Below the pieces are notes generated by a model. The model made no database searches and was not told where the DNA came from. It was given only the letters and a program-made list of their open reading frames with translations. From contig JAIYCV010000008.1 in assembly GCA_027487845.1 (NCBI GenBank), positions 1-64,000 on the forward strand: a stretch of 64,000 nucleotides of DNA, given 5' to 3'. The stretch is from Flammeovirgaceae bacterium. GTDB taxonomy: Bacteria; Bacteroidota; Bacteroidia; Cytophagales; Cyclobacteriaceae. A program made the position numbers and the translations under genes. How positions within the stretch are numbered: the first letter of the stretch is position 1; the number at the start of each line of letters is the position of its first letter. Shown here in pieces: positions 11,071-24,062 of the stretch.

Positions 11071-12072
11071 TTACTTTAAAACCTCAACTATCGCTCTTTC
11101 AACTATCGAATCTTTCATTTTTAGAGAATCTTCTTTTGTTGTATATACAATAATGTCAGGTTCAATACCCATGCGTATGGGTTTTCTATTTAAGTCACAA
11201 AGCAGGGAAGTAGAAACTCGATATGACCAACCGTTGGGTAGCTCTTTTAAAATGGGTGACGTGCCACTGCCTCCATTAGTGTAATCTCCTATTTGAATTA
11301 TTTGTGGAAAACACTTCATAGACAGGACGAATTCTTCGGTCGCACTGAAAGAATATCGATTGGTTAAAACTGCAACCTTTCCTTTAAACTGCACTGACCC
11401 AGAGGGCTCAATATCATCGGCAACGAAATCACTCATCTTGGTGGGTTGTTGTTTATTCACGCGGTATCTTTCGTAAGCATATATTCTTTGCTTATCTGCA
11501 AACCTACTCGCTATGATTTGTCTCGGACTTTTGTTTCCACCGCTATTACTTCTCACATCAATAATGATTCCTTTGACTTTGTTAAAATCTTGAATGATTT
11601 GATCAATTATTGAGTACTGTTCATCTTGATTGCCGAAGGTTCCGATGTAAATGTAGCCCACATCTTGACTTATTAATCCGTAACCAATGGCACTGTTATA
11701 CTTGTAATAGGTTAGATAATTTTGCCGTATCCAATTGAGCCCATAAAAGTTAAAATCGTATCGCGGATAGTATCCAATCTTAGCTTGATTTTTTGGATAG
11801 ATAGTTGTGTGTCCATCCTCAAGGATATTTACCAAACGCCCCAACACATTTTTCAGATCGTACTCACTTGTTTTTTGATTTATTTGAGGCCGATAAATAT
11901 TATAGATTGAGTCCCAATTTACCCTTTTACTTTCAAATTCAGGCCAACAGTCATCAACGCCATTCCAAAACTCATCAAAGATTTCTATTGGGGTGTTTGT
12001 AGGATCTTTCCCAAGAAAAAAATCGGTGCAGGAAACCAACAGAAGTGCCGCGATAAATGATATTTTTCTCAT
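11071..12072 (-). CDS. S41 family peptidase, lipoprotein
   Basis: A 333-residue protein with an N-terminal lipoprotein signal (L-L-V-S-C, Cys15), so it should be anchored to the outer membrane or periplasmic face. The S41 core is visible as I-I-I-D-V-R-S-N-S-G-G-N (169-180) and N-R-Y-S-F-S-A-T-E-E-F, with Ser243 the probable nucleophile, then I-G-D-Y-T-N-G-G-S-G-T. A PDZ domain is not obvious, unlike the 6621 peptidase; the layout is closer to tricorn/IRBP-like S41 proteins. N-terminal G-H-T-T (87-90) is the conserved helical-domain signature. The start overlaps the stop of the upstream gene as TAATG, so the two minus-strand genes form an operon. Confidence 0.86.
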   Translation of the reverse strand: MRKISFIAALLLVSCTDFFLGKDPTNTPIEIFDEFWNGVDDCWPEFESKRVNWDSIYNIYRPQINQKTSEYDLKNVLGRLVNILEDGHTTIYPKNQAKIGYYPRYDFNFYGLNWIRQNYLTYYKYNSAIGYGLISQDVGYIYIGTFGNQDEQYSIIDQIIQDFNKVKGIIIDVRSNSGGNKSPRQIIASRFADKQRIYAYERYRVNKQQPTKMSDFVADDIEPSGSVQFKGKVAVLTNRYSFSATEEFVLSMKCFPQIIQIGDYTNGGSGTSPILKELPNGWSYRVSTSLLCDLNRKPIRMGIEPDIIVYTTKEDSLKMKDSIVERAIVEVLK

Positions 12073-12722
12073 TAGTTGACCTTAAAAATGACCGAAGTTG
12101 TTAGCTGATGACTTAAGGAAGTTAGGGTCTCGAACTTTCTTAAATTATTTAACTGAAATTGATACTCAAACCTCAAATTCCATTTAACTGCTAATGATTT
12201 GCTAAAAGCCATTCGCCAATTTATTGTCGAAAACTCAGAAATTCCAAGTAAATTTAGCTGTGGAGGCAAACTTCTTGCATATCCAGCTTGGAAAGAAACA
12301 GCCATTATTGATGACCAAACCTGTGCACTAAGCAAGTCTTTCCTCATCGGCAATTCAACTAATAAACTTGGGCTCAATGAAGTAATCAATTCTCCATTGA
12401 TATCAGAAACGCCAGAATAATTACTACTCTGTCGAAAGTTAATATTTAGGTCAAAGAGTCCGCCAACAAAAAACAGTATGTTATTGCTTTTTGATCTAAA
12501 TTTTCTGTGATGAGCAAATTGAAGATAACCAATTTGTCCATTAGTAGAAAACCCGTTAGAAGAAGATGTTAAAAATGAAGACGCATAAGACAGTTGAATA
12601 TGATTTTTGCTTTTTTCTCCATCAGCCTTAACAAAAAATATAACGGGAGATGCTGACCCACTATGGGTAAACGAGGATACTGATTGATCTTTGATGGCGT
12701 AATAAATCCAACCTGTTCCCAA
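12072..12722 (-). CDS. Hypothetical barrel-like envelope protein, main reading frame of a frameshifted gene
   Basis: A 216-residue frame that opens without a convincing start: the first usable codon is TTG at 12722, yet the frame is open and plausible further upstream (K-K-Q-I-G-L-G-T-G-W-I-Y-Y). The body alternates hydrophobic and polar residues, contains F-A-H-H-R-K-F, L-F-V-G-G-L-F-D-L-N-I-N-F and W-N-L-R-F-E-Y-Q-F, and ends S-V-I-F-K-V-N, which suggests an outer-membrane barrel. A secreted barrel needs a signal peptide, and one is encoded immediately upstream in the neighbouring frame (12731-12799). It is coupled to the S41 lipoprotein gene downstream. The family is not recognised. Confidence 0.6.
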   Translation of the reverse strand: MGTGWIYYAIKDQSVSSFTHSGSASPVIFFVKADGEKSKNHIQLSYASSFLTSSSNGFSTNGQIGYLQFAHHRKFRSKSNNILFFVGGLFDLNINFRQSSNYSGVSDINGELITSLSPSLLVELPMRKDLLSAQVWSSIMAVSFQAGYARSLPPQLNLLGISEFSTINWRMAFSKSLAVKWNLRFEYQFQLNNLRKFETLTSLSHQLTTSVIFKVN

Positions 12723-12730
12723 TCCAATTT

Positions 12731-12799
12731 GTTTTTTCCGCGACTGACAAAGCGAAGAAAAGGGATTACCAATAAAGATATTAGAATTGCAGTTTTCAC
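12731..12799 (-). other. Out-of-frame signal peptide segment ending at an A AAA AAC slip site
   Basis: From a GTG at 12799 the frame reads V-K-T-A-I-L-I-S-L-L-V-I-P-F-L-R-F-V-S-R-G-K-N, a good signal peptide. The frame continues into implausible sequence and stops near 12569. At 12731-12737 (plus strand GTTTTTT) the minus strand reads A AAA AAC in the signal-peptide frame, the canonical heptamer for -1 ribosomal slippage. A slip there enters exactly the 12072-12722 frame. A single A lost from a run of seven would look the same. Confidence 0.6.
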
Positions 12800-12875
12800 C
12801 TTGTCAAATTGCCGAGAGTACAGCAAAGATAACCCCTCTACCTAACACTCGTCCAACAACTGTATAGAATTTTTT

Positions 12876-12908
12876 TTGGCCTTTTACTTGAATACCACGT
12901 TAAAATTG
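12876..12908 (+). promoter_or_regulatory. Candidate promoter of the ilv operon
   Basis: TTG at 12876-12878 and TAAAATTG at 12901-12908, 22 bases apart, resemble the Bacteroidota -33 TTG / -7 TAnnTTTG promoter (one mismatch). The leader-peptide ATG is 36 bases downstream, a suitable distance. The call rests on consensus resemblance only. Confidence 0.4.
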
Positions 12909-12943
12909 GTGAATCTTGTATCGAAGCAGAAGAAAATTAACAC

Positions 12944-13033
12944 ATGATGATCGTATCCAATAACGACAAGTTTAATCTCAGCACCTCAAGTGTTGTGATA
13001 AGTGTCATTATTCTCCGAAAACCGGGGCAGTGA
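12944..13033 (+). CDS. ilv operon leader peptide
   Basis: A 29-codon open frame, ATG 12944 to TGA 13031-13033, not long enough for ordinary gene callers. It starts M-M-I-V. Codons 17-24 (12992-13015) read Val-Val-Ile-Ser-Val-Ile-Ile-Leu, seven branched-chain codons out of eight; ten of the 29 residues are Ile, Val or Leu. Directly downstream lie a GC-rich segment able to pair with the left arm of a strong terminator, then ilvE. This is the arrangement of classical ilv attenuation as known from enterobacterial ilv operons: stalling at Val/Ile/Leu codons when charged tRNA is scarce lets the operon be read. A second ATG at 12947 could equally be the start. Confidence 0.88.
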   Translation: MMIVSNNDKFNLSTSSVVISVIILRKPGQ

Positions 13034-13090
13034 TGATTATGTTTTAAACTATATCAAAACCGCCCCGAGAGATTGGGGCGGTTTTGTTTT
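13023..13090 (+). terminator. ilv attenuator: terminator with competing antiterminator
   Basis: Terminator: AAAACCGCCCC (13056-13066), loop of 8, GGGGCGGTTTT (13075-13085), then GTTTT. Antiterminator: CGGGGC at 13023-13028 pairs exactly with GCCCCG at 13062-13067, consuming the left arm of the terminator. The 13023-13028 segment lies over the last codons before the leader stop, 8 bases past the Val/Ile/Leu run. A ribosome stalled on the run leaves it free (readthrough); one that reaches the stop covers it (termination). The structure was read by eye, not by energy calculation. Confidence 0.88.
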
Positions 13091-13127
13091 ATATGGGCTA
13101 CTGCAAACTAACGATTGTTTTAGAAGT

Positions 13128-14018
13128 ATGGAATATTATAACAGCGAAACGATTCTCTTCCTAGACGGAAACTTTGTCAAAGCCAGCGAAGCCAAGACCG
13201 ACCTTTTCGGGCAAACTTTACATTATGGCTATGGCGTGTTTGAAGGCATTCGTGCATATGAAACGGTGAATGGCACAAAACTTTTCAAAGCACATGAGCA
13301 CTTTGAGCGATTGAAAAGAAGTTGCAAACTCATGGGCATTCCTTTCGAGTATTCAACCGAAGAAATGGTGCAGGCAACCTATCAAGTGCTGGAGAGAAAC
13401 AGCTTATCAAATGCCTACATACGTCCGTTAGTTTTTTGCAGTCCGAATATGTCATTGACTGCCCCAAATGGAGTTTCTTTGATGATAGCCGCTTGGGAAT
13501 GTGAACAACACCCTACCTTAAAGCCATCGCGGATCTGTATTTCATCGTTCCAGCGACCCAACCCGAAAGCGGTAACCATGGAAGCCAAAGTCTGTGGCTT
13601 GTATGTGAACTCCATTTTGGCAACAACGGAAGCAAAAAAACGCGGCTTTGATGATTGCTTACTTCTCGACCTTAGCGGATTTGTAGCAGAAGGACCAGGA
13701 GCCAACTTCTTTTATGAGAAGGATGGAATTATTTACACGCCCCCTGCCGAAAGTATTTTACCAGGTATTACACGCAAGACGGTCATTCATATTTGTCGCC
13801 AATTGGAGTTGCCGGTGGAAGAAAAATATTTTAGACCCGAAGAATTATTTGAAGCGGACTCGGCCTTCTTCTGCAGCACGATGCTAGAGATTGTTGGCGT
13901 AAGTTCAATCGAAGGTCAACCAATGGGGCTCGATTGGAAAGATTCGATGGGCGCATTAATCCAAGAGACGTACCGGAATATTGTGTTAGAAAAGAGTTAT
14001 TCGTATGTAATTGTTTAA
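13128..14018 (+). CDS. ilvE: Branched-chain amino acid aminotransferase
   Basis: A 296-residue fold-type IV PLP enzyme that transfers amino groups between glutamate and the keto acids of valine, leucine and isoleucine. Landmarks are L-H-Y-G-Y-G-V-F-E-G-I-R-A-Y (31-44), the PLP Lys154 in M-E-A-K-V-C-G-L-Y-V-N-S-I-L, and the cofactor-phosphate region D-D-C-L-L-L-D. The length fits group I enzymes. The ATG at 13128 is chosen because the longer frame, open from 13002, runs through the attenuator terminator and overlaps the leader peptide. First structural gene of the ilv operon, 42 bases after the attenuator stem. Confidence 0.94.
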   Translation: MEYYNSETILFLDGNFVKASEAKTDLFGQTLHYGYGVFEGIRAYETVNGTKLFKAHEHFERLKRSCKLMGIPFEYSTEEMVQATYQVLERNSLSNAYIRPLVFCSPNMSLTAPNGVSLMIAAWECEQHPTLKPSRICISSFQRPNPKAVTMEAKVCGLYVNSILATTEAKKRGFDDCLLLDLSGFVAEGPGANFFYEKDGIIYTPPAESILPGITRKTVIHICRQLELPVEEKYFRPEELFEADSAFFCSTMLEIVGVSSIEGQPMGLDWKDSMGALIQETYRNIVLEKSYSYVIV

Positions 14019-14095
14019 ACTAGCCTTGAGCTATGAGCTTCAGGTTTTGAGCCAGCGTGCTCACTTCTCGAAGCTCGCGGCTCGTACCTTATAAG

Positions 14096-15775
14096 ATGGA
14101 ATTGAATAAATATAGCAAAACAATCACGCAAGACCCAACACTACCAGCATCTCAAGCGATGTTGTATGGAATTGGTTTGACGGAAGAAGATTTGAAAAAG
14201 GCTCAAGTTGGAGTGGTAAGCACCGGCTATGATGGCAACACGTGCAACATGCACTTGAACGACTTAGCAAAAGAAGTGAAACAAGCCGTTTGGAAGCAAG
14301 ACTTGGTAGGATTGATTTTCCACACCATTGGCGTAAGCGATGGCATTGCGAATGGTACCGAAGGCATGCGCTATTCATTGGTGAGCCGTGAGGTGATTGC
14401 TGACTCAATAGAAACGGTGTGTGGCGCTCAGCATTACGATGGCCTCATTGCCGTAGTGGGTTGCGATAAAAATATGCCTGGCTCGTTGATTGCCATGGGT
14501 AGGTTGAACCGTCCTGCAATTATGGTGTATGGTGGCACTATTGCCGGTGGTCATTGGAAAGGAAAAGAACTGAATATCATTTCTTCATTTGAAGCCTTGG
14601 GCGAAAAAATACAAGGCAAACTTACTGAGGAGGATTTCAAAGGCATCATACAAAATTCTTGTCCTGGTGCTGGTGCGTGTGGTGGTATGTACACAGCTAA
14701 CACAATGGCATCGGCTATCGAAGCATTGGGCATGGCATTACCGTATTCGTCTTCTAATCCAGCGTTAAGCAAAGAAAAATCCGAAGAATGCATAGAAGCG
14801 GGAAAAGCCATCCGCTTGCTGTTGGAAAAAGATTTGAAGCCTCGTGACATCATGACGTTCAAAGCCTTTGAAAATGCCATTACTAGTGTGATGGTGTTGG
14901 GTGGATCTACCAATGCGGTATTGCATTTGATAGCGATGGCGAAGAGTGTAGGCGTAAAAATTACTCAAGAAGATTTTCAACGCATTTCGGATAAGACGCC
15001 ATTGATTGCTGATCTTAAACCAAGTGGTAAATATTTGATGGAAGCGCTTCATAAAATTGGAGGCGTTCCATCGGTAATGAAATATCTGTTGCAGAAAGGA
15101 TACTTGCATGGAGATTGTATCACGGTAACGGGCAAAACAATTGCTGAGAATATTGCCAGCGCGAAAGACTTGAATTTCGATACACAGGATGTTATTGTTC
15201 CCTTCGAAAAGCCAATTAAAAAAACAGGGCACTTACAAATTCTATACGGGAATTTGGCCGAGAAAGGATCGGTTGCAAAAATTACAGGCAAAGAAGGTGA
15301 ACGCTTTAAAGGAACGGCCCGTGTTTTTAATGGCGAGTTTGACTTAGTGGATGGCATCAAATCCGGAAAAATAAAAGAGGGCGATGTAGTAGTAATTCGT
15401 TACGTTGGCCCAAAGGGTGCCCCAGGTATGCCAGAAATGTTGAAGCCTACAAGCTTAATCATGGGGTCAGGACTTGGTAAGCATGTTGCATTGATTACCG
15501 ATGGAAGGTTTTCCGGAGGATCGCATGGATTTGTAATTGGTCACATCACGCCAGAGGCAGCCGAGGGTGGGTTAATTGGGCTTGTGGAGGATAACGACTG
15601 GATTGAAATCGATGTAAAAAAACATCAAATCAATTTGTTGGTAGATGAAAAAACATTGGCGATCAGGAGATCGCACTATACCGCACCAGCACCTCGCGTT
15701 ACGAGCGGTGTACTTTTTAAATATTCAAAACAAGTTAAAACAGCAGCTGATGGATGCGTTACTGACGAAGATTAA
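14096..15775 (+). CDS. ilvD: Dihydroxy-acid dehydratase
   Basis: A 559-residue Fe-S dehydratase that converts 2,3-dihydroxy-isovalerate and -methylvalerate to the keto acids. Cluster cysteines are visible in T-C-N-M-H (about 57), G-C-D-K-N-M-P-G-S (about 124-132) and [14 protein letters not shown] (about 196-209). [11 protein letters not shown] near residue 470 is the conserved C-terminal catalytic loop. Start at 14096 because translation upstream enters the repeat-like ilvE-ilvD spacer. The end overlaps the ilvB start by 26 bases, indicating translational coupling. Confidence 0.96.
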
Positions 15776-17513
15776 ACCTGAAGTTGATACCGTAGTTCAA
15801 CAAACAAAAAAGATTTCGGGCTCGGAATCCTTGCTTCAATCATTAGTAGAGGAGGGAGTTACTACGTTGTTCGGATATCCTGGAGGTGCTATCATGCCTG
15901 TGTACGATGCCCTCTATAGTTATGCTGACAGACTTACTCATATTTTAGTTCGTCATGAACAAGGAGCAGTGCATGCAGCGCAGGGATATGCGCGTGTGTC
16001 GGGCCAAGTGGGTGTCGCGTTTGCTACTTCTGGGCCGGGCGCTACAAACTTAGTTACGGGTCTGGCGGATGCGATGATCGACTCAACTCCGATCGTTTGT
16101 ATTACAGGTCAGGTGTTTGCACACTTACTGGGAACGGATGCGTTTCAAGAAGTGGATGTAATTAATACCACGCTGCCCGTTACAAAATGGAACATTCAAG
16201 TGACCGAAGCGAAAGATATTGCTCCCGCTATCGCGAAAGCATTTTACATAGCCCGCACAGGAAGGTCAGGGCCTGTATTGGTTGACATTACAAAAAATGC
16301 GCAAAATGAAAAAATAGACGAAGTAGCCTATAAAAAGTGCGAGGGTATCAGAACGTATAAGCATAAGCCCATCCTTCAAACCACACAAATTGACGCTGCT
16401 GCCAAATTGATTAACAACGCAAAGCGTCCGTATATCTTGGCGGGTCAAGGGGTTTTGTTATCGGGTGCCACCAAAGAGCTTATTGCTTTCTCAGAAAAGA
16501 CGGGTATTCCTGTCGCTTGCACGCTCTTGGGTTTGGGTGCTTTTCCACAAGATCATCCAAATTACGTGGGCTACTTGGGCATGCACGGAAATTATGGCAC
16601 CAACGTGAACACCAATGCCTGCGATGTGTTGATTGGTTTGGGTATGCGCTTTGATGACCGCGTTACCGGTAATGTGTCGAAATATGCTAAGCAGGCAAAA
16701 GTTATTCATATTGAAATCGATAAAGCGGAAATAAGTAAAATTATTAAAGCTGACGTGCCTGTTCATGCCGATGCCAAAGAAGCGTTGATTGCCTTAACCG
16801 AAATTTGTACTCCTAATAATTTCGAAGCTTGGATTGAAACTTTTCGAAAGTTCGATGCCATTGAGCACGACAAAGTTGTGCGGCATGAATTTAATCCGAA
16901 AGGAGAAGAATTAATGATGGCCGAGGTAATCAATCATCTTTCAAATCTGACTAAGGGAGAAGCAGTAGTTGTAACTGATGTAGGTCAACATCAGATGACA
17001 ACATCAAGGTATTATCGCTATCAAAAGCCAAGAACAAATATTACTTCTGGTGGTGCTGGTACAATGGGCTTCGCCCTGCCTGCTGCCATGGGAGCAAAAC
17101 TAGGTGCTCCCGAGAAACAAGTGGTGGCAGTTATAGGAGACGGTGGTTACCAAATGACGGTGCAAGAACTTGGCACCATTATGCAGTACAAGATTCCCGT
17201 TAAGATTATGGTGCTAAACAATAATTTTTTAGGCATGGTGAGGCAATGGCAACAACTTTTTCATGAGAAACGGTATTCATTCACCGAAATGGATAATCCT
17301 GACTTTATCAAGTTAGCCGAAGCCTATAGTATCAGAGCAAGAAAAGTAACGAAGCGCGATGAACTGCAAGAAGCTCTCAAAGAAATGTTGGCTGCGAGAA
17401 CGTCTTATTTCTTAGAAGTAGTGGTGGGCAAAGAAGACAACGTATTCCCGATGGTGCCAGCAGGAGCTGGAGTGGCGGATGTGATTTTGGAAGCACCAAT
17501 TAGTAGTAAGTAG
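15750..17513 (+). CDS. ilvB: Acetolactate synthase, large (catalytic) subunit
   Basis: A 587-residue ThDP-dependent enzyme, first common step of valine and isoleucine synthesis. The N-terminal domain has [15 protein letters not shown] and the catalytic Glu in [15 protein letters not shown]; the C-terminal ThDP motif begins G-D-G-G-Y-Q-M-T and continues to [13 protein letters not shown]. An FAD-type middle domain ([12 protein letters not shown]) is intact. The ATG at 15750 gives a family-normal N-terminus; the frame is open back to 15645 but that part reads as a shadow of ilvD. It would work with the ACT subunit encoded next. Confidence 0.95.
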
Positions 17514-17514
17514 C

Positions 17515-17584
17515 AAGACACAAGTAGTAAGATAAAATAATGAAAGAAAAAGTATTAAATCTCGTGTCTTGATACTTGTGTCTT
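17515..17584. repeat. Inverted repeat in the ilvB-ilvN spacer
   Basis: AAGACACAAGTA (17515-17526) has its exact reverse complement TACTTGTGTCTT at 17573-17584, able to form a 12-base stem with a 46-base loop inside the ilv mRNA. The right arm is part of GTCTTGATACTTGTGTCTTA (17566-17585), which recurs with two changes at 62745-62764. It is probably a dispersed Bacteroidota intergenic repeat rather than a gene-specific signal. Confidence 0.6.
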
Positions 17585-17598
17585 AAATCTCAAAAGAA

Positions 17599-17889
17599 AT
17601 GAAACAAGACTATACCCTAATCCTAACTGCAGACAATAATTTTTCGGTACTCAATCGGATTATTAACGTATTGAATAGAAGAAGAGTGCGTATAAAAAAG
17701 ATGATGGCGCATGAATTGGAGGATGACTTCAGGCGTGGCGGTATGGTGCTATTGCTTTTCACAACATCAGACCTTATGGAAAAGGTGAAGCTTCAGTTAG
17801 AGAAACTGATTGAAGTGGACGAGGTAATAGTGCAAGAGGGAAGTGCCGCTTATCTTGAAAAGAGTGAACAAATCGTGGATGTGGATTAG
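17599..17889 (+). CDS. ilvN: Acetolactate synthase, small regulatory subunit (single ACT domain)
   Basis: A 96-residue ACT-domain protein starting Y-T-L-I-L-T-A-D-N-N-F-S-V-L-N-R-I-I-N-V-L-N-R-R, the usual ligand-facing helix of acetolactate synthase small subunits, which mediate valine feedback inhibition. It is much shorter than the roughly 160-residue IlvN/IlvH proteins and lacks their C-terminal domain, resembling the short IlvM type. Position behind ilvB supports the assignment. Whether it confers valine sensitivity cannot be told from sequence. Confidence 0.88.
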   Translation: MKQDYTLILTADNNFSVLNRIINVLNRRRVRIKKMMAHELEDDFRRGGMVLLLFTTSDLMEKVKLQLEKLIEVDEVIVQEGSAAYLEKSEQIVDVD

Positions 17890-17912
17890 GGGTGCGGTAG
17901 GTCATCAAAATA

Positions 17913-18488
17913 ATGAATAAAACAGATAATAAATATCCCACAGCTTATGCATCCATAAAAGAAGCTACTACAATGGCGGGTTTTACAATGGCTTCTGATG
18001 TTTTAACATGCTCACTACTTAGAACGCTCGCAGCCTCTAAACCAGGCGGGAAATTCCTTGAGCTAGGAACAGGTACGGGTTTATCTACTTCGTGGATTTT
18101 AGATGGGATGGATTCTTCGTCAACACTTATTTCGGTTGATAACGATCCTATTTTTTTGGCGATTGCCCAAGCTAATCTAGCTGAAGATGATCGCCTTGAC
18201 TTAGTTTGTGTTGACGGTGGCGAATGGATAGAAGAGAACAAAGCTAAAAAGTACGATTACGTTTTTGCCGACACCTGGCATGGTAAATATTTAATGCTCG
18301 ATGAAACACTTGCTATGTTAAACAAAGGAGCATTATATATCATTGACGATATGCTCCCACAAGCTAACTGGCCAGATGGGCACGCAGAGAAAGCTTCTCA
18401 ATTAATTGCAGAACTCGAGCGAAGACAGGATTTAACAATTACAAAACAAGATTGGGCGACTGGGATAATTATAGCAACAAAACAATAG
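17913..18488 (+). CDS. Class I SAM-dependent O-methyltransferase-like protein
   Basis: A 191-residue Rossmann methyltransferase. Motif I is F-L-E-L-G-T-G-T-G-L-S-T-S-W-I (about 47-61), followed by the acidic S-V-D-N-D-P (about 75-80) that binds the ribose of SAM, and D-Y-V-F-A-D-T-W-H-G-K-Y with an aspartate where catechol-type O-methyltransferases bind metal. The overall pattern resembles the CmoM/O-methyltransferase group. The substrate is unknown. It sits between ilvN and ilvC, 23 bases after ilvN, and would be co-transcribed, though nothing in BCAA synthesis needs a methyltransferase. The 80-base spacer to ilvC is AT-rich. Confidence 0.78.
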   Translation: MNKTDNKYPTAYASIKEATTMAGFTMASDVLTCSLLRTLAASKPGGKFLELGTGTGLSTSWILDGMDSSSTLISVDNDPIFLAIAQANLAEDDRLDLVCVDGGEWIEENKAKKYDYVFADTWHGKYLMLDETLAMLNKGALYIIDDMLPQANWPDGHAEKASQLIAELERRQDLTITKQDWATGIIIATKQ

Positions 18489-18569
18489 TCAATCAAACCA
18501 GAAACTTTTTTAACAACCAACAAATAAAAACGACTTACTAAACAATTAACTTTTAACTTAAACTAAACT

Positions 18570-19640
18570 ATGGCACAGATTAATTTCGGGGGAACGATAG
18601 AGGAGGTGGTAACAAGGGAAGAATTCCCAATGAGCAAAGCACTTGAATTTTTAAAGAAAGAGGTGATCGCAATCATTGGATACGGAGTTCAGGGCCCTGC
18701 CCAAAGTTTGAACCTTCGTGATAACGGATTCAATGTTATTGTAGGTCAACGCAAAGGGTCAAAAACATGGAATAAGGCAGTTGAGCATGGATGGATTCCT
18801 GGCGAAACTTTATTTGACATTGAAGAAGCAGTGAAGCGTGGAACGATCATTCAATTCTTGTTGTCGGATGCCGGCCAAATCGAGTTATGGCCAACCATCA
18901 AACCTTATCTGACAAAGGAAAAGACACTTTATTTCTCCCATGGTTTTGGTATCACATTTAAAGAACAAACGGGTATTGTTCCCCCCGCAGATATTGATGT
19001 AATCTTGGCAGCGCCAAAAGGTTCTGGAACATCCGTGCGCAGATTATTCTTGCAAGGAAAAGGTATCAACGCAAGTTATGCTGTATTTCAAGATGCAACC
19101 GGAAAAGCAAAAGACAAGGCAATTGCTCTCGGTATTGGAGTAGGAGCTGGTTATTTGTTTGAGACTGATTTTAAGAAGGAAGTATACTCTGATTTAACTG
19201 GTGAGCGAGGCACGTTAATGGGCGCTATCGCAGGGATCTTTGAGGCTCAATATGAGGTGTTGCGTTCTAAAGGACATTCGCCTTCCGAAGCATTTAATGA
19301 AACAGTAGAAGAACTAACCCAAAGCTTAATGCCGTTGGTTGCAGAAAATGGAATGGATTGGATGTATGCCAACTGTTCTACTACAGCCCAACGCGGAGCC
19401 TTAGATTGGAAGAAAAAGTTTAAGGCAGCAACGTTGCCTGTTTTCAACGAATTATATGAAAGTGTTGCATCTGGTGCTGAAGCGAAAAGGACAATCGATA
19501 CATGTAGCAAGCCTGACTACCGCGAGAAGTTGGCGGAGGAATTGAAAGAGGTTCGCGAAAGTGAATTATGGCAAGCAGGCGCAGCAGTTCGTTCGCTTAG
19601 ACCCGAAAAGAACGCAGTTGAAAAGAGCATGATAAATTAA
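18570..19640 (+). CDS. ilvC: Ketol-acid reductoisomerase
   Basis: A 356-residue NADPH-dependent enzyme that isomerises and reduces acetolactate and acetohydroxybutyrate. The Rossmann motif is G-Y-G-V-Q-G-P-A-Q (about 38-46); V-G-Q-R-K-G-S-K-T-W holds the basic and serine residues for the NADPH phosphate. A-P-K-G-S-G-T-S-V-R-R carries the catalytic lysine region, and S-D-L-T-G-E-R-G-T-L-M-G provides the Asp/Glu metal ligands. Its length fits the short class I enzyme rather than the 490-residue E. coli type, with a slightly longer C-terminal tail. An AT-rich leader precedes the ATG. Confidence 0.95.
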   Translation: MAQINFGGTIEEVVTREEFPMSKALEFLKKEVIAIIGYGVQGPAQSLNLRDNGFNVIVGQRKGSKTWNKAVEHGWIPGETLFDIEEAVKRGTIIQFLLSDAGQIELWPTIKPYLTKEKTLYFSHGFGITFKEQTGIVPPADIDVILAAPKGSGTSVRRLFLQGKGINASYAVFQDATGKAKDKAIALGIGVGAGYLFETDFKKEVYSDLTGERGTLMGAIAGIFEAQYEVLRSKGHSPSEAFNETVEELTQSLMPLVAENGMDWMYANCSTTAQRGALDWKKKFKAATLPVFNELYESVASGAEAKRTIDTCSKPDYREKLAEELKEVRESELWQAGAAVRSLRPEKNAVEKSMIN

Positions 19641-19647
19641 TTTTTAC

Positions 19648-20850
19648 GTGACGTTAAGCAGGCAAGGCGATTGGACAAATCACAAATTCTTTAAGACCGA
19701 CAAATTCATTCTTGCAATTTGGATCGCCTTGCCTGTGCTTAACTGGATTATCAATTTTCCGCACGATCGCCATAATAACTATAAAATATTTCGTGCCATG
19801 TTTTGGCACTTGGTTGAACAAAAAAATCTTTATGCTGCATATCCGCAAGAGCATGGGGATTTTTTTCATTACGGGCCGGCTTTTAGTTTAGTAATCGCCC
19901 CCTTCGCCATTTTTCCTGATGTAGTGGGAGGTTTGCTTTGGGGTTTATTCAACGTTCTTATCCTATTTTATGCGCTCAACAAACTTAAGCTAAAACAACA
20001 ACTCAACGTTTTATTAATGTTGCTAGCCACCATTGAGCTTGCCAATTCGGTTTGGGCTAATCAGTACAATCCCTGTATTTCAGCAATGATTATTTTGAGC
20101 TTTGCAATGGTTGAGGAAGAAAAAGATTTTTATGCTCCGTTTTGGATTTTACTGGGGGCTTTCACAAAAGTGTATGGAGTTGTTGGTTTGATATTCTTTT
20201 TGTTTTCAAAGAATAAGGTAAATTTTATTTTGGGATGTGTCGTTTGGGCGATCGCATTTTTTGTTCTTCCAATGGTATTGTCATCACCCAGCTACATTGT
20301 GCAAACATATCTCGATTGGTATTATGATCTGATTTCAAAGAACTCCCAACTCATTGTTTCGATTTCTTCGGATCTCACAATTATGGGGCTTGTACGAAAG
20401 CTCAGTGGCCATCTAGAACTATCCAATTTTTGGTTTTTTGCTTTTGGCCTACCATTGTTATTGTTACCGTTGATACGCGTAAAGCAATTTGGATCTAAGC
20501 AATTTAGATTACTGATATTAGCCTCGTTGCTTATGTTTATTGTTTTGTTTAGCACTGCGTCCGAACATCCAACTTATGTCATCTGCATTATCGGTTGTTT
20601 TCTTTGGTTGGTGCTTCAAGAAAAAATTTTTACAATGCGAAATATCATTCTCATTTTCTTTGTCTTATTCCTAACTGGGCTTGCGCCAACCTATGTCTTT
20701 TCGAAAGAAGTAGCGGTTTTTATTTTGTACTATGCCCTCAAGGCGTTGCCTTGTGTTGTTATTTGGTTTCTGTTGCTTTGGGATTTATACAAAAAGAATT
20801 TTCTTTCGATCCCCGATACAAATTATTTTATAATTAATTCAAGAAATTGA
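19648..20850 (+). CDS. Multi-pass membrane protein, GT87/DUF2029-like glycosyltransferase
   Basis: A 400-residue integral membrane protein with about ten hydrophobic segments. The N-terminal part H-D-R-H-N-N-Y-K-I-F-R, then L-Y-A-A-Y-P-Q-E-H-G-D-F-F-H-Y-G-P-A-F (about 60-78), matches the first-loop signature of DUF2029/GT87 polyprenyl-phosphate-mannose-dependent transferases, where an acidic residue is catalytic. Translation begins at GTG 19648, 7 bases after the ilvC stop; the reading is consistent from there. Substrate and acceptor are unknown. It is embedded in the ilv operon between ilvC and ilvA without obvious metabolic link. Confidence 0.72.
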   Translation: MTLSRQGDWTNHKFFKTDKFILAIWIALPVLNWIINFPHDRHNNYKIFRAMFWHLVEQKNLYAAYPQEHGDFFHYGPAFSLVIAPFAIFPDVVGGLLWGLFNVLILFYALNKLKLKQQLNVLLMLLATIELANSVWANQYNPCISAMIILSFAMVEEEKDFYAPFWILLGAFTKVYGVVGLIFFLFSKNKVNFILGCVVWAIAFFVLPMVLSSPSYIVQTYLDWYYDLISKNSQLIVSISSDLTIMGLVRKLSGHLELSNFWFFAFGLPLLLLPLIRVKQFGSKQFRLLILASLLMFIVLFSTASEHPTYVICIIGCFLWLVLQEKIFTMRNIILIFFVLFLTGLAPTYVFSKEVAVFILYYALKALPCVVIWFLLLWDLYKKNFLSIPDTNYFIINSRN

Positions 20851-20870
20851 TTTTCAAATCCTAATTCAAG

Positions 20871-22118
20871 ATGACACAAACTGTTCTCTACACAATCAAT
20901 ATTGATCAGGCATACGAGGTACTTAAAAAAGTTGTTTTAAAAACTCCTCTGCAATTTCATCGAAAACTATCGGAGAAATTTGGTGCCGATGTTTACCTGA
21001 AACGGGAAGACCTGCAAGTTGTGCGTTCTTATAAAATACGTGGAGCTTATAATCTTATTCAAAGCCTTACTGAGGATCAACGTAAGCAGGGTATTGTATG
21101 TGCAAGTGCTGGTAATCACGCGCAAGGTGTTGCATTTTCATGCAAGCTACTTACTATTCAAGGGGTAATTTACATGCCAGCCATTACACCTAAGCAAAAG
21201 ATTAACCAGGTGAAAATGTTTGGTGGAACTAACGTAGAGATTGTATTGATTGGCGATACGTTCGATGATTGTCAGGCACATGCGCTTGAATTTACCGCAG
21301 CAAATAATCGTGTTTTTGTTCCGCCTTTCGATCATTTGAAAATCATTGAAGGGCAAGGTACAGTAGGGAAGGAGATTTTTGAGGAGTTGGAAGGCGTTGA
21401 TTATTTATTTGTTCCGGTAGGAGGGGGGGGGTTGATTGCTGGGATGAGTCAATACTATAGAACGTATTCTCCAAGTACAAAGATTATTGGTGTAGAACCA
21501 ACTGGTGCGCCTTCTATGAAAGAAGCAATTAAAGCGGGGAAACCTGTAGTGCTTGATAAGATACAACGTTTTGTTGATGGTGCCTCGGTAAAGAAAGTAG
21601 GCGAACTTACGTTTGATCTTAGCAAAGACATGGCCGACATGCTTTTAGTGCCAGAAGGAAAAGTAAGTTCAGCAATTCTTCAATTGTATAATGAAGATGC
21701 TATTGTAGCCGAACCGGCAGGTGTTCTTTCGATAGCTGCACTGGATCAATATGCCGATCAGATTAAAGGTAAAAAAGTAGTGTGCATTGTAAGCGGAGGC
21801 AATAATGATATCGATAGAATGCAAGAGATTAAAGAACGATCTTTACTGTATGAGGGCCTCAAACATTACTTCATTGTTCGTTTTGCCCAACGCCCTGGAG
21901 CGTTAAAGGAATTTGTGAATCATATACTTGGTCCAACGGATGACATTGTGCGCTTTGAATTCATTCAAAAAAATAACAAAGAGACGGGGCCAGCCCTCAT
22001 CGGGATCGAATTGAAAGCAAAAGACGATTTTAATTCGTTGATCGAAAGAATGGATGCATACAAGCTTAATTACACGGTCGTTAATCAGAATGAAAATTTG
22101 TTTGAGTACTTAGTATGA
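20871..22118 (+). CDS. ilvA: Threonine dehydratase (biosynthetic)
   Basis: A 415-residue fold-type II PLP enzyme that deaminates threonine to 2-oxobutanoate, the entry to isoleucine. Lys55 in R-S-Y-K-I-R-G-A-Y-N is the Schiff-base residue; S-A-G-N-H-A-Q-G-V-A (about 84-93) binds the substrate, and V-G-G-G-G-L-I-A-G (about 185) the PLP phosphate. A C-terminal ACT-like regulatory domain begins near residue 335 (F-A-Q-R-P-G-A-L-K-E-F), so isoleucine feedback is likely; it is a single ACT-like unit rather than the double unit of the E. coli enzyme. The end overlaps the next gene by 4 bases (ATGA). Confidence 0.94.
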   Translation: MTQTVLYTINIDQAYEVLKKVVLKTPLQFHRKLSEKFGADVYLKREDLQVVRSYKIRGAYNLIQSLTEDQRKQGIVCASAGNHAQGVAFSCKLLTIQGVIYMPAITPKQKINQVKMFGGTNVEIVLIGDTFDDCQAHALEFTAANNRVFVPPFDHLKIIEGQGTVGKEIFEELEGVDYLFVPVGGGGLIAGMSQYYRTYSPSTKIIGVEPTGAPSMKEAIKAGKPVVLDKIQRFVDGASVKKVGELTFDLSKDMADMLLVPEGKVSSAILQLYNEDAIVAEPAGVLSIAALDQYADQIKGKKVVCIVSGGNNDIDRMQEIKERSLLYEGLKHYFIVRFAQRPGALKEFVNHILGPTDDIVRFEFIQKNNKETGPALIGIELKAKDDFNSLIERMDAYKLNYTVVNQNENLFEYLV

Positions 22119-22489
22119 TCAATCGATACGCTGGGGAGATTCACATTAATCCTATTTCTCAATTACGAAATGGTGATTTTAACAACGATGGACGTATTCA
22201 AAATGTAGACGCTACCTTAAAGGAAGCTATAGAACTCAATCAAAAAATTGGGTTTAATTTGCAACAGCTAACAGCTTGGCTCGATACTAACAAATCAGGA
22301 TTGCTGCAACTTCACTTTGCAGATGGGGGATATATAAGCCTAAGTGGTTTAACGGATTCACAACTTAAAGAATTGGAATCAAAAGGGCTTATTCAATTGC
22401 ATGATTTCGCTACTGATAAAAATTGGGTTAAGAAATTTGGTCATCATTTTGGGCTGATTTGGGAAGATGGTCAGGCTGTAGAAATTTAA
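22115..22489 (+). CDS. Hypothetical protein coupled to ilvA
   Basis: A 124-residue soluble protein that I do not recognise. It begins M-I-N-R-Y-A-G-E-I-H-I-N and has N-G-D-F-N-N-D-G-R-I, a Ca-loop-like or merely turn-rich stretch, at residues 20-29. The C-terminal half contains L-Q-L-H-F-A-D-G-G-Y-I-S-L-S-G-L-T and ends K-K-F-G-H-H-F-G-L-I-W-E-D-G-Q-A-V-E-I. There is no signal peptide or membrane segment. The ATGA overlap with ilvA and 2-base gap to the next gene place it firmly in the operon. Confidence 0.65.
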   Translation: MINRYAGEIHINPISQLRNGDFNNDGRIQNVDATLKEAIELNQKIGFNLQQLTAWLDTNKSGLLQLHFADGGYISLSGLTDSQLKELESKGLIQLHDFATDKNWVKKFGHHFGLIWEDGQAVEI

Positions 22490-22491
22490 CC

Positions 22492-23412
22492 ATGATAAAA
22501 TATTTTCCCTTCTCTTCTACGTTCGATTTGAAAATGGGAACGTCACTAATGAAAGAGGAATACGCCATTGTGGAGGTAGATCAACACTACTATTCTGAGA
22601 TAAAACTCAAACGATCTTTACTAGCAGACGATTATTCTTACTATTTCAACTCATTGCCTGAAACGAATTTGGCACAGTGGGAAGTAGTTGAAAAAGTAGC
22701 GAACGATTTAGTGAAGTTGGATTCAACTAGTTTCTCATTGACAAAAAATGGATTGAACTTTGAGTTTAGAAACGCTCTCCTAAAGGAAGAACTTACTTGT
22801 ACGTTAGGCGATGAACGCTCCATTCCCCTTGCACCGATGGATTGGATCGGGCGTCAGATTCAAGAGGATCTTGTGCTTCTGAACCCATTGGGTGAAGTAG
22901 TGGCAGGACAGTTGTGTTTCCCCAGTGGATGGGCGCTCAGTGAAAAATTGGGTAAACAATTCATTGACGTTCACGCTCCGCTCCCTTCACTTACCAGTCC
23001 AATGATTCTTGCTGCCAATAAGTTAATCGAGCGTTTGCCACTTGGAAAGCCGGTAGCTCGCAATAATTGGGGTTTTCGTTTAGATGATCAACTTGATTTA
23101 TCGTCTAAACACTCGGTAGCTTATCGCGAAAAGCTTTTGACTGTAATTCCTACACTGTCGTTGGAAGAGTTCGGCAAAAGAATATTTCTTCGGGTTGAAC
23201 ATCAAACGCTAACCAGGTTACCACAATCAGGTTTTGTGCTATTTACCATCCACACTTATAATAGTTCATTGGCCGAAGAATGTAAGAGTGTTGAACGAAC
23301 CCAAGCTATGTTTTCGTTTTTAAATTCTGTACCTCGTGAGATGATCGAGTATAAAGTGATGGACGGAATTTATGAAACTATTATTTGTTATTTGAGTTTC
23401 AGGAACAGTTAA
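22492..23412 (+). CDS. HDOD/DUF3445 family protein (haem-dependent oxidative N-demethylase-like)
   Basis: A 306-residue protein of the DUF3445 family, members of which are described as haem-dependent oxidative N-demethylases. I recognise M-G-T-x-x-M near the N-terminus, I-Q-E-D-L-V-L-L and L-C-F-P-S-G-W-A (about 128-156), L-P-L-G-K-P-V-A-R-N-N-W-G-F (about 182-195), and L-R-V-E-H-Q-T-L-T-R-L-P-Q-S-G-F-V-L-F-T-I (about 240-260). The family name is from memory. The ATG at 22492 is two bases past the upstream stop; the frame open from 22459 overlaps that gene and is not needed. Last gene of the ilv operon. Confidence 0.75.
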   Translation: MIKYFPFSSTFDLKMGTSLMKEEYAIVEVDQHYYSEIKLKRSLLADDYSYYFNSLPETNLAQWEVVEKVANDLVKLDSTSFSLTKNGLNFEFRNALLKEELTCTLGDERSIPLAPMDWIGRQIQEDLVLLNPLGEVVAGQLCFPSGWALSEKLGKQFIDVHAPLPSLTSPMILAANKLIERLPLGKPVARNNWGFRLDDQLDLSSKHSVAYREKLLTVIPTLSLEEFGKRIFLRVEHQTLTRLPQSGFVLFTIHTYNSSLAEECKSVERTQAMFSFLNSVPREMIEYKVMDGIYETIICYLSFRNS

Positions 23413-23504
23413 TCTAGCTGAGGATTAGGTTAACTAATTCAAATAGTCGCTGTTGCAAGTGCCAGTTGCAATCGATAAAAATTCCGAGTAAGAAATAGAT
23501 TGAC

Positions 23505-24062
23505 TTAATTCTTTTCAGACCGGTTAACTAATTTCCCTTCAATCTTTTTTAGCTTCTCCAATTGAATTGCCTGGCTTTCACGAAGTACTTTTACTTGCTC
23601 TTCTAATATAAAATCTACTTTTTGATTTAACGCTCGAATTCCCAATTCCGCCTTCAGGTTTATTAGATAATCGTTTTCGCTTCTTTTTCTATCTTTCTCG
23701 TCTTTCCTGTTTTGGCTCATCATAATGATGGGTGCTTGAAGCGCGGCTATGCATGACAATACCAGATTCATCAGGATGAACGGATATGGGTCAAAATCGT
23801 CTTTATTGGGGGCGAGTGTATTGAAGAGTATCCAACTAATTAGAATAATGAAGAATGAAGTAATGAAGCCCCAGCTTCCACCGAAACTGGCTACTTTGTC
23901 TGATATTTTTTGAGAAGTTGATAGTGGTTCTTCTGGAGGATGTAGTAAGTTTTCGATAATTAATTTTTCTTCGAGCAGTGCCTTATCGACAATTTCTTTT
24001 AGTTTTCTTGCCTGCTTTTGTTCTGCTTCCAAAAGTCGAGCCCTAGTTGATCGCATCTTCAT
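23505..24062 (-). CDS. DUF1003 membrane protein
   Basis: A 185-residue protein with a charged helical N-terminus (1-55), two hydrophobic helices (about 63-83 and 95-113) and a long charged coiled-coil C-terminus. F-G-G-S-W-G-F-I-T-S-F followed by W-I-L-F-N-T-L and D-P-Y-P-F-I-L-M-N-L-V-L-S-C-I-A-A-L-Q-A-P-I-I-M-M-S-Q-N-R-K are the DUF1003 hallmarks. The function is not established. It converges with the ilv operon and follows the secreted protein gene at 24121. Confidence 0.85.
   Translation of the reverse strand: MKMRSTRARLLEAEQKQARKLKEIVDKALLEEKLIIENLLHPPEEPLSTSQKISDKVASFGGSWGFITSFFIILISWILFNTLAPNKDDFDPYPFILMNLVLSCIAALQAPIIMMSQNRKDEKDRKRSENDYLINLKAELGIRALNQKVDFILEEQVKVLRESQAIQLEKLKKIEGKLVNRSEKN

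Follow-up and report, generated by a model that had tools for sequence, protein, structure and literature searches.

The window analyzed here, a 64 000-nt stretch of DNA, carries a run of genes for branched-chain amino acid synthesis, and the question is what controls their transcription. The original prediction, made from the sequence alone, placed in front of the run a classical attenuator responding to Val, Ile and Leu. Having followed it up, we consider it very likely that a ribosome-mediated transcription attenuator for these three amino acids precedes the ilv operon.

All genes of the run are plus-strand ORFs. According to NCBIfam, the first gene of the operon is ilvE (branched-chain aminotransferase, 13128..14018), and the others include ilvD (dihydroxy-acid dehydratase, 14057..15775), ilvB (acetolactate synthase large subunit, ORF as listed 15645..17513), ilvC (ketol-acid reductoisomerase, 18570..19640) and ilvA (threonine ammonia-lyase, 20871..22118). 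The genes 3' of the leader thus synthesize the same amino acids as its control codons encode. The listed ilvB ORF (15645-17513) overlaps ilvD, and the true ilvB start is probably later. A short ACT-domain protein encoded at 17599..17889 (plus strand) scores below the NCBIfam curated cut-offs and is likely the acetolactate synthase small subunit; at ~96 aa and with weak ACT matches, this subunit is apparently reduced. Genes resembling a methyltransferase (17913-18488), a GT87 glycosyltransferase (19648-20850) and a haem-dependent demethylase (22459-23412) lie within or after the ilv genes. No plus-strand terminator-like site inside 13128-23412 comes near the attenuator in strength, and the number of plus-strand terminator-like sites in 12700-23700 (11) compares with 10.1 in shuffles. 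Judging from the sequence, the genes at 13128-23412 may form one transcript, all of it under the attenuator, as had been proposed.

Elements of the leader region

The leader peptide frame had been predicted to span 29 codons at 12944-13033, and we found it exactly there, on the plus strand, from ATG at 12944 to TGA at 13031-13033. Its translation is MMIVSNNDKFNLSTSSVVISVIILRKPGQ. The claim of seven branched-chain codons out of eight at 12992..13015 was confirmed as well, the codons reading V V I S V I I L.

An intrinsic terminator follows on the plus strand at 13055..13090, consisting of a stem (13055-13086) and TTTT (13087-13090). The terminator is therefore where it was expected, but its stem has 14 bp, not the 11 bases originally assigned to 13056-13085. 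The upstream ORFs (11071-12722) are oriented opposite to the leader, and therefore the terminator is not theirs. The six-base antiterminator pairing, CGGGGC at 13023-13028 with GCCCCG at 13062-13067, proved exact, but it is merely the base of a longer hairpin: upon folding, RNA 13022-13067 forms a single hairpin of -17.3 kcal/mol. Since this antiterminator hairpin (2:3, 13023..13067, plus strand) uses the 5' arm of the terminator, the two structures are mutually exclusive, as originally proposed, and the folding model bears this out. The 156-nt leader RNA as a whole folds with -53.5 kcal/mol (z = -5.83), and none of 200 shuffles is as good. One more plus-strand hairpin, at 13004..13037, might act as a protector or pause hairpin (1:2). 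Although it belongs to the minimum free energy fold, it is predicted not to outcompete the antiterminator, which wins over it in the model. The protector hairpin may be weak, or the kinetics may be unlike the model.

Promoter-like boxes are found on the plus strand at 12888..12918, with TTG at 12888-12890, 20 nt, and GAATCTTG at 12911-12918. By eye, TTG, ~20 nt and nAnYCTTG boxes precede the leader in most relatives; a strict box pattern matches in 27 of 38 relatives, a count that has no control and includes some shifted matches. Going by the consensus of Bacteroidota promoters, the boxes of the window are a putative promoter, and transcription would be expected to start near 12923, upstream of the leader and not downstream of 13033; as far as sequence can tell, this agrees with the original prediction.

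Ribosome position and the fold of the leader RNA

The nascent RNA was folded downstream of a ribosome whose A-site was placed at each codon in turn. For the window sequence, placing the A-site at ATT 13007, ATT 13010 and CTC 13013 gives antiterminator probabilities of 0.98, 0.97 and 0.99, respectively, the last for a shorter form of -8.8 kcal/mol. With the A-site at CGA 13016 and beyond, the probability is 0.00. The test was extended to the 39 aligned leaders described below. With a 12-nt footprint, the terminator 5' arm ceases to be paired between 0 and 4 codons past the last V/I/L codon in every one of the 39 sequences (1 to 5 codons for a footprint of 9 nt, -1 to 3 codons for 15 nt). The antiterminator segment is therefore placed to read the end of the run. 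A ribosome standing one or two codons short of the last V/I/L codon leaves arm pairing at 0.5 or higher in all 39 sequences, and one at the stop codon brings it to 0.3 or lower, again in all 39. According to the original prediction, a stalled ribosome would expose the antiterminator segment and a ribosome at the stop would mask it, and in the folding model this happens in 39 of 39 sequences each way. Energy-based folding with and without ribosome masking, suggested at the time as a check, thus returned the switch geometry as claimed. If the ribosome stands 8 codons short of the run end, arm pairing drops below 0.35 in 5 of the 39 sequences (L005, L011, L012, L023 and L044).

The equilibrium fold of the full-length leader RNA is the terminator only, and antitermination must therefore be kinetic. 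When no ribosome is present, the antiterminator is still predicted for the window (0.98), and the arm is mostly paired (at least 0.5) in 30 of 39 sequences, unlike in the case of a textbook protector hairpin. Termination without translation is not predicted by the model for the window sequence.

The proposed course of events is as follows. Polymerase would start near 12923, and a ribosome would translate the 29-codon leader. If charged Val-, Ile- or Leu-tRNA is short, the ribosome would stall in 12992-13015, leaving the RNA from 13023 onward free. The antiterminator (13023-13067) would then form ahead of the synthesis of the terminator 3' arm, and polymerase would continue through ilvE-ilvD-ilvB-(small subunit)-ilvC-ilvA. 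With an ample supply of charged tRNAs, the ribosome would reach the stop codon and cover 13023-13028, so that the terminator (13055-13086) would stop transcription after ~170 nt. In this scheme translation, stalling, kinetics, the start site and the response to amino acids are what we infer.

Conservation in the genus and occurrence in the phylum

A V/I/L-rich run may arise by chance. A plus-strand ORF 10-60 codons long in which V/I/L made up no fewer than 7 of 8 codons turned up in 16 of 2000 dinucleotide shuffles of 12723-13127, and therefore the run alone is not overwhelming evidence. There are eight V/I/L-rich short ORFs in the 64-kb window, four per strand; only for one of them, the 12944 frame, does a terminator-like hairpin lie 110 nt or less past the stop. 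Since such ORFs do occur by chance, the comparison with relatives is the deciding evidence.

We searched 58 genomes and obtained an ilvE match at E 1e-60 or better in 32 of 36 genus genomes, including the one under study. A V/I/L leader and a terminator are present upstream of ilvE in 31 of these 32 genus loci. The exception, G016 (L034), has no leader peptide but retains a hairpin and the O2 motif introduced below (AACTAACAATTGTT). In L124 (G096) the leader, terminator and motif are all present, and no ilvE start is evident by eye after the motif. The alignment of leaders (A1) comprises 39 sequences, these 31 genus loci plus 8 named MAG contigs. Seven of the 15 loci from the MAG search stayed outside A1: L046, L047, L051 and L052, whose contigs are equal in length to those of loci already included, and three named as other genera.

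The nine terminator pairs hold in 99.1% of A1 cells, with 16 two-sided changes, compared to 31.6-63.2% of cells in controls with the partner slid. The six antiterminator base pairs hold in 92.3% of cells (slid controls, 38.4-52.1%), the segment being misplaced by A1 in some rows, including L027, L028, L032 and L050. Five measures were taken for each pair count, and in each count two of the five, pairs with two-sided changes and further pair types, do not exceed shuffles (reached by 166/500 and 500/500 shuffles, respectively, for the terminator and by 108/500 and 100/500 for the antiterminator). The fate of the original prediction hung on conservation in relatives, where the leader, the terminator and the antiterminator are indeed all kept, with compensating changes. 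Across the best 10-codon windows, one per leader, Ile, Leu and Val account for 123, 105 and 92 of the 390 codons; the number of branched-chain codons per window is 7 to 9 in 37 leaders, 10 in one and 6 in one. V, I and L interchange between positions across relatives, and the remainder of the leader peptide is divergent.

We then looked upstream of ilvD in a wider range of genomes. In the order sample, an IlvD match was present in 96 of 146 genomes (97 places), and 60 upstream regions were taken from 59 genomes, two of them shortened by contig ends. The scan for a leader and a terminator succeeded in 31 of the 60 regions versus 3 of 60 for reversed sequences and 0 of 60 for the opposite strand; three of the 31 loci (L136, L154 and L175) look like chance. 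Once an antiterminator match was also demanded, 28 of 60 regions were left, the two controls combined giving 1 of 60. The phylum sample comprised 118 genomes, 47 of them with an IlvD match, and 30 loci were scanned, 19 of which showed a leader and a terminator (0 reversed, 1 opposite strand). Removal of our own locus and of one already counted (L184, L185) gave 28 phylum loci, of which 17 passed the first scan and 15 the full test (controls, 0/28). All three parts are therefore found upstream of ilvD at 43 of 88 further loci, the full test having failed at 32 order and 13 phylum loci. The stems are wholly different between families and the antiterminator matches each of them, for example, GTGAGGCACT with AGTGCCTCAC. 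Judged by sequence, the leader-terminator-antiterminator arrangement is present in part of the phylum. This is controlled sequence evidence for classical amino acid attenuation of branched-chain synthesis in that part, with control codons, pairings and switch points now mapped.

The rival explanations have to be weighed against these data. A plain terminator or 5' stabilizer preceded by an accidental V/I/L run is what the shuffles and the additional ORFs in the window would allow for; however, 39 sequences retain the run, its frame and both pairings, regions upstream of ilvD have the arrangement far more often than controls do, and the ORFs preceding the leader point the other way, making this explanation highly improbable. 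We assign as little credence to direct sensing of tRNA or amino acid by a T-box or riboswitch, with the leader ORF being incidental. Firmicutes ilv and leu leaders do often have T-boxes, but the gathering score of an Rfam family is not attained anywhere in the window; the leader-type matches are rnk_pseudo (23.9 bits) and Phe_leader (20.9 bits), with a gathering score of 55 each. The same is true for 15 loci of relatives, a single tRNA excepted, and it is the ORF and its pairings that are the conserved elements. Arrest of the ribosome by the leader peptide itself, through its conserved RKPG end, seems very unlikely too. Many genus members do share the end VIILRKPG plus one residue, but the leaders of other relatives end in QPTGWC, PPAG, HSPG, KKKR or PNRDDGG, and in most relatives the G-rich segment pairs with the terminator arm despite the changed peptide end. 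Since the peptide end is variable and the G-rich pairing is retained, it looks as if the RNA, rather than the peptide, is what is constrained at the leader end.

Attenuation by the ribosome thus remains our preferred reading, and it can be compared with known systems. Enterobacterial ilvGMEDA, ilvBN and leuABCD are ribosome-mediated attenuators. The window resembles the enterobacterial ilv and leu attenuators in having an Ile/Val/Leu-rich leader, a terminator, an exclusive antiterminator and biosynthetic genes downstream. It differs from them in phylum, in having ilvE first, in the O1/O2 motif, in the predicted weakness of the protector hairpin and in the lack of an Rfam match. Four features of the attenuator class were found, one of them by the folding model only, and the assignment of the window system to the ordinary ribosome-mediated leader-peptide attenuators is supported. 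For the ilvBNC attenuator of Corynebacterium, a conserved leader ORF or leader region in front of the ilv genes and alternative mRNA hairpins are reported (PMC10272879, PMC11857589). It shares these with the window and differs in phylum, in gene order and in that three hairpins are proposed for it. In the survey by Naville and Gautheret (2010), no leader-peptide attenuation had, as far as the authors knew, been demonstrated outside Proteobacteria and Actinobacteria except for their own histidine case in Firmicutes, ermC aside; the main text does not contain bacteroid, cytophaga or ilv, and what the surveyed systems share with ours is leader-peptide attenuation as a class (PMC2965389). Another study notes, in its main text, a distance of leader genes that peaks in Bacteroidetes, and ilv does not occur in that text (PMC4833913). 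A report of ilv attenuation in Bacteroidota was not among the papers listed in literature searches; as our coverage of the literature is incomplete, we claim no priority. The mechanism is a textbook one, and the points worth following are its spread in the phylum and the motif coupled to it.

A conserved motif next to the terminator

The motif TAAC-N4-GTT, unforeseen in the original prediction, occurs once before the promoter and again after the terminator. The latter copy, O2 (AACTAACGATTGTT, 13106..13119, plus strand), is located 24 nt past the G+C stem of the terminator. The former, O1 (CCTAACACTCGTCC, 12841..12854, plus strand), is a degenerate TAAC-N4-GTTA copy upstream of the promoter boxes. 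The sequence data suggest that the motif is a putative operator of a regulator, that is, a second layer of control. The attenuator would then be joined by a DNA-bound regulator at O1/O2, which at O2 might act as a roadblock and keep polymerase on the terminator. We find such two-layer control plausible and yet lean slightly against it.

Several observations favor it. Among the 40 ilvE and 24 leuC copies counted, O2 hardly varies, with a one-base variant in 2 of 40 rows. Its spacing to the terminator is equal in 37 of 39 A1 rows and one shorter in 2, whereas its distance to the start codon is variable among relatives. An O1-type motif is present in 35 of 38 ilv regions of relatives, our own included, compared to 2 of 38 for the reversed motif (L018 was excluded because of too little upstream sequence). 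The typical form of O1 in relatives is CTAACATTCGTTA, and in the nearest relative (L029) it is CCTAACATTCGTTC; where both were matched, O1 precedes the TTG box by ~45-49 nt. The leu genes provide an additional argument. With one mismatch allowed, CAAACTAACGATTGTT occurs in our genome twice, both times exactly, at ilvE and before leuC. Pfam assigns the leu genes of this genome to the aconitase family, aconitase C-terminal, isopropylmalate-dehydrogenase type and HMGL-like, and a promoter-like box is found close before the leuC hairpin. The LeuC text filter was passed by 29 of 30 loci (not L236), and, since L123 is the same as L228, these represent 28 distinct places. A G+C hairpin and U run precede O2 in these copies, with a spacing of 21-26 nt in 26 of the 28 and of 18 nt in two, and a V/I/L-rich ORF before the hairpin is present in a single region (L091). 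The hairpin and motif common to ilv and leu point to a regulon. The distance between leuC and ilvE, measured by motif positions, is ~76 kb here (G000:C15:13106 and 89435) and ~6-15 kb in many relatives.

Motif searches covered a family sample and a sample of relatives. Of the 58 relatives' genomes, 20 contain the exact 13-mer, and most of these 20 places are the ilvE, leuC or O1-type sites described above. Thirty family motif loci were compared with four reference proteins: 20 of them precede ilvE (6), leuC (6) or acyl-CoA dehydrogenase (8, including our own genome), again in line with two-layer control, and the remaining 10 precede none of the four. A strong hairpin accompanies the 12 ilvE and leuC motif copies and is absent from the 8 dehydrogenase copies. 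The form AACTAAC-NN-TYGTT is common to ilvE (13106-13119), leuC (L058/L059) and acyl-CoA dehydrogenase (L231).

Other observations speak against a second layer. In 148 family genomes, the looser motif was counted 37 times and its reversed control 31 times, which is barely a difference, and therefore the signal is in the place of the motif, not in its number. The left half of O2 is better conserved than the right half, making the dyad symmetry imperfect. No regulator gene was found among the 6 proteins scanned beside our own acyl-CoA dehydrogenase gene. Moreover, the motif could have a role at the RNA level or aid translation. Two further interpretations were dropped: a W-symmetric operator AACWA-N4-TWGTT, because the dehydrogenase copies have C at that place, and, by eye, O2 as a -7 promoter box, because the spacing from TA to TTG is one base too long. 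As for DNA looping between O1 and O2, no phasing is visible in their distances (~252 to 300).

Within two-layer control, a composite switch, in which a regulator on O2, at its fixed 24 nt, blocks polymerase while it is on the terminator, appears unlikely. If true, one terminator would integrate tRNA charging, read through the leader peptide, with a protein signal. Because the leu operon has the hairpin-operator half only, the pair would be a stand-alone module, and the acyl-CoA dehydrogenase gene would be a third target.

Two observations were made along with the motif. Upstream of leuC in L090, L091, L093-L095, L098, L101, L106 and L107, there is a similar stretch around GATTACCCAATAACCTAACCTAAACCT. 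It lies between the promoter and the hairpin, is absent upstream of leuC in our own genome and is possibly a structured RNA. A variant of the motif, AACTAACCCTTGTT (L113-L119), is found upstream of another gene together with a similar upstream block; the downstream protein, where readable, resembles NPNQxLYDQVMDVHDEVMPKMDEIMKLKREL.
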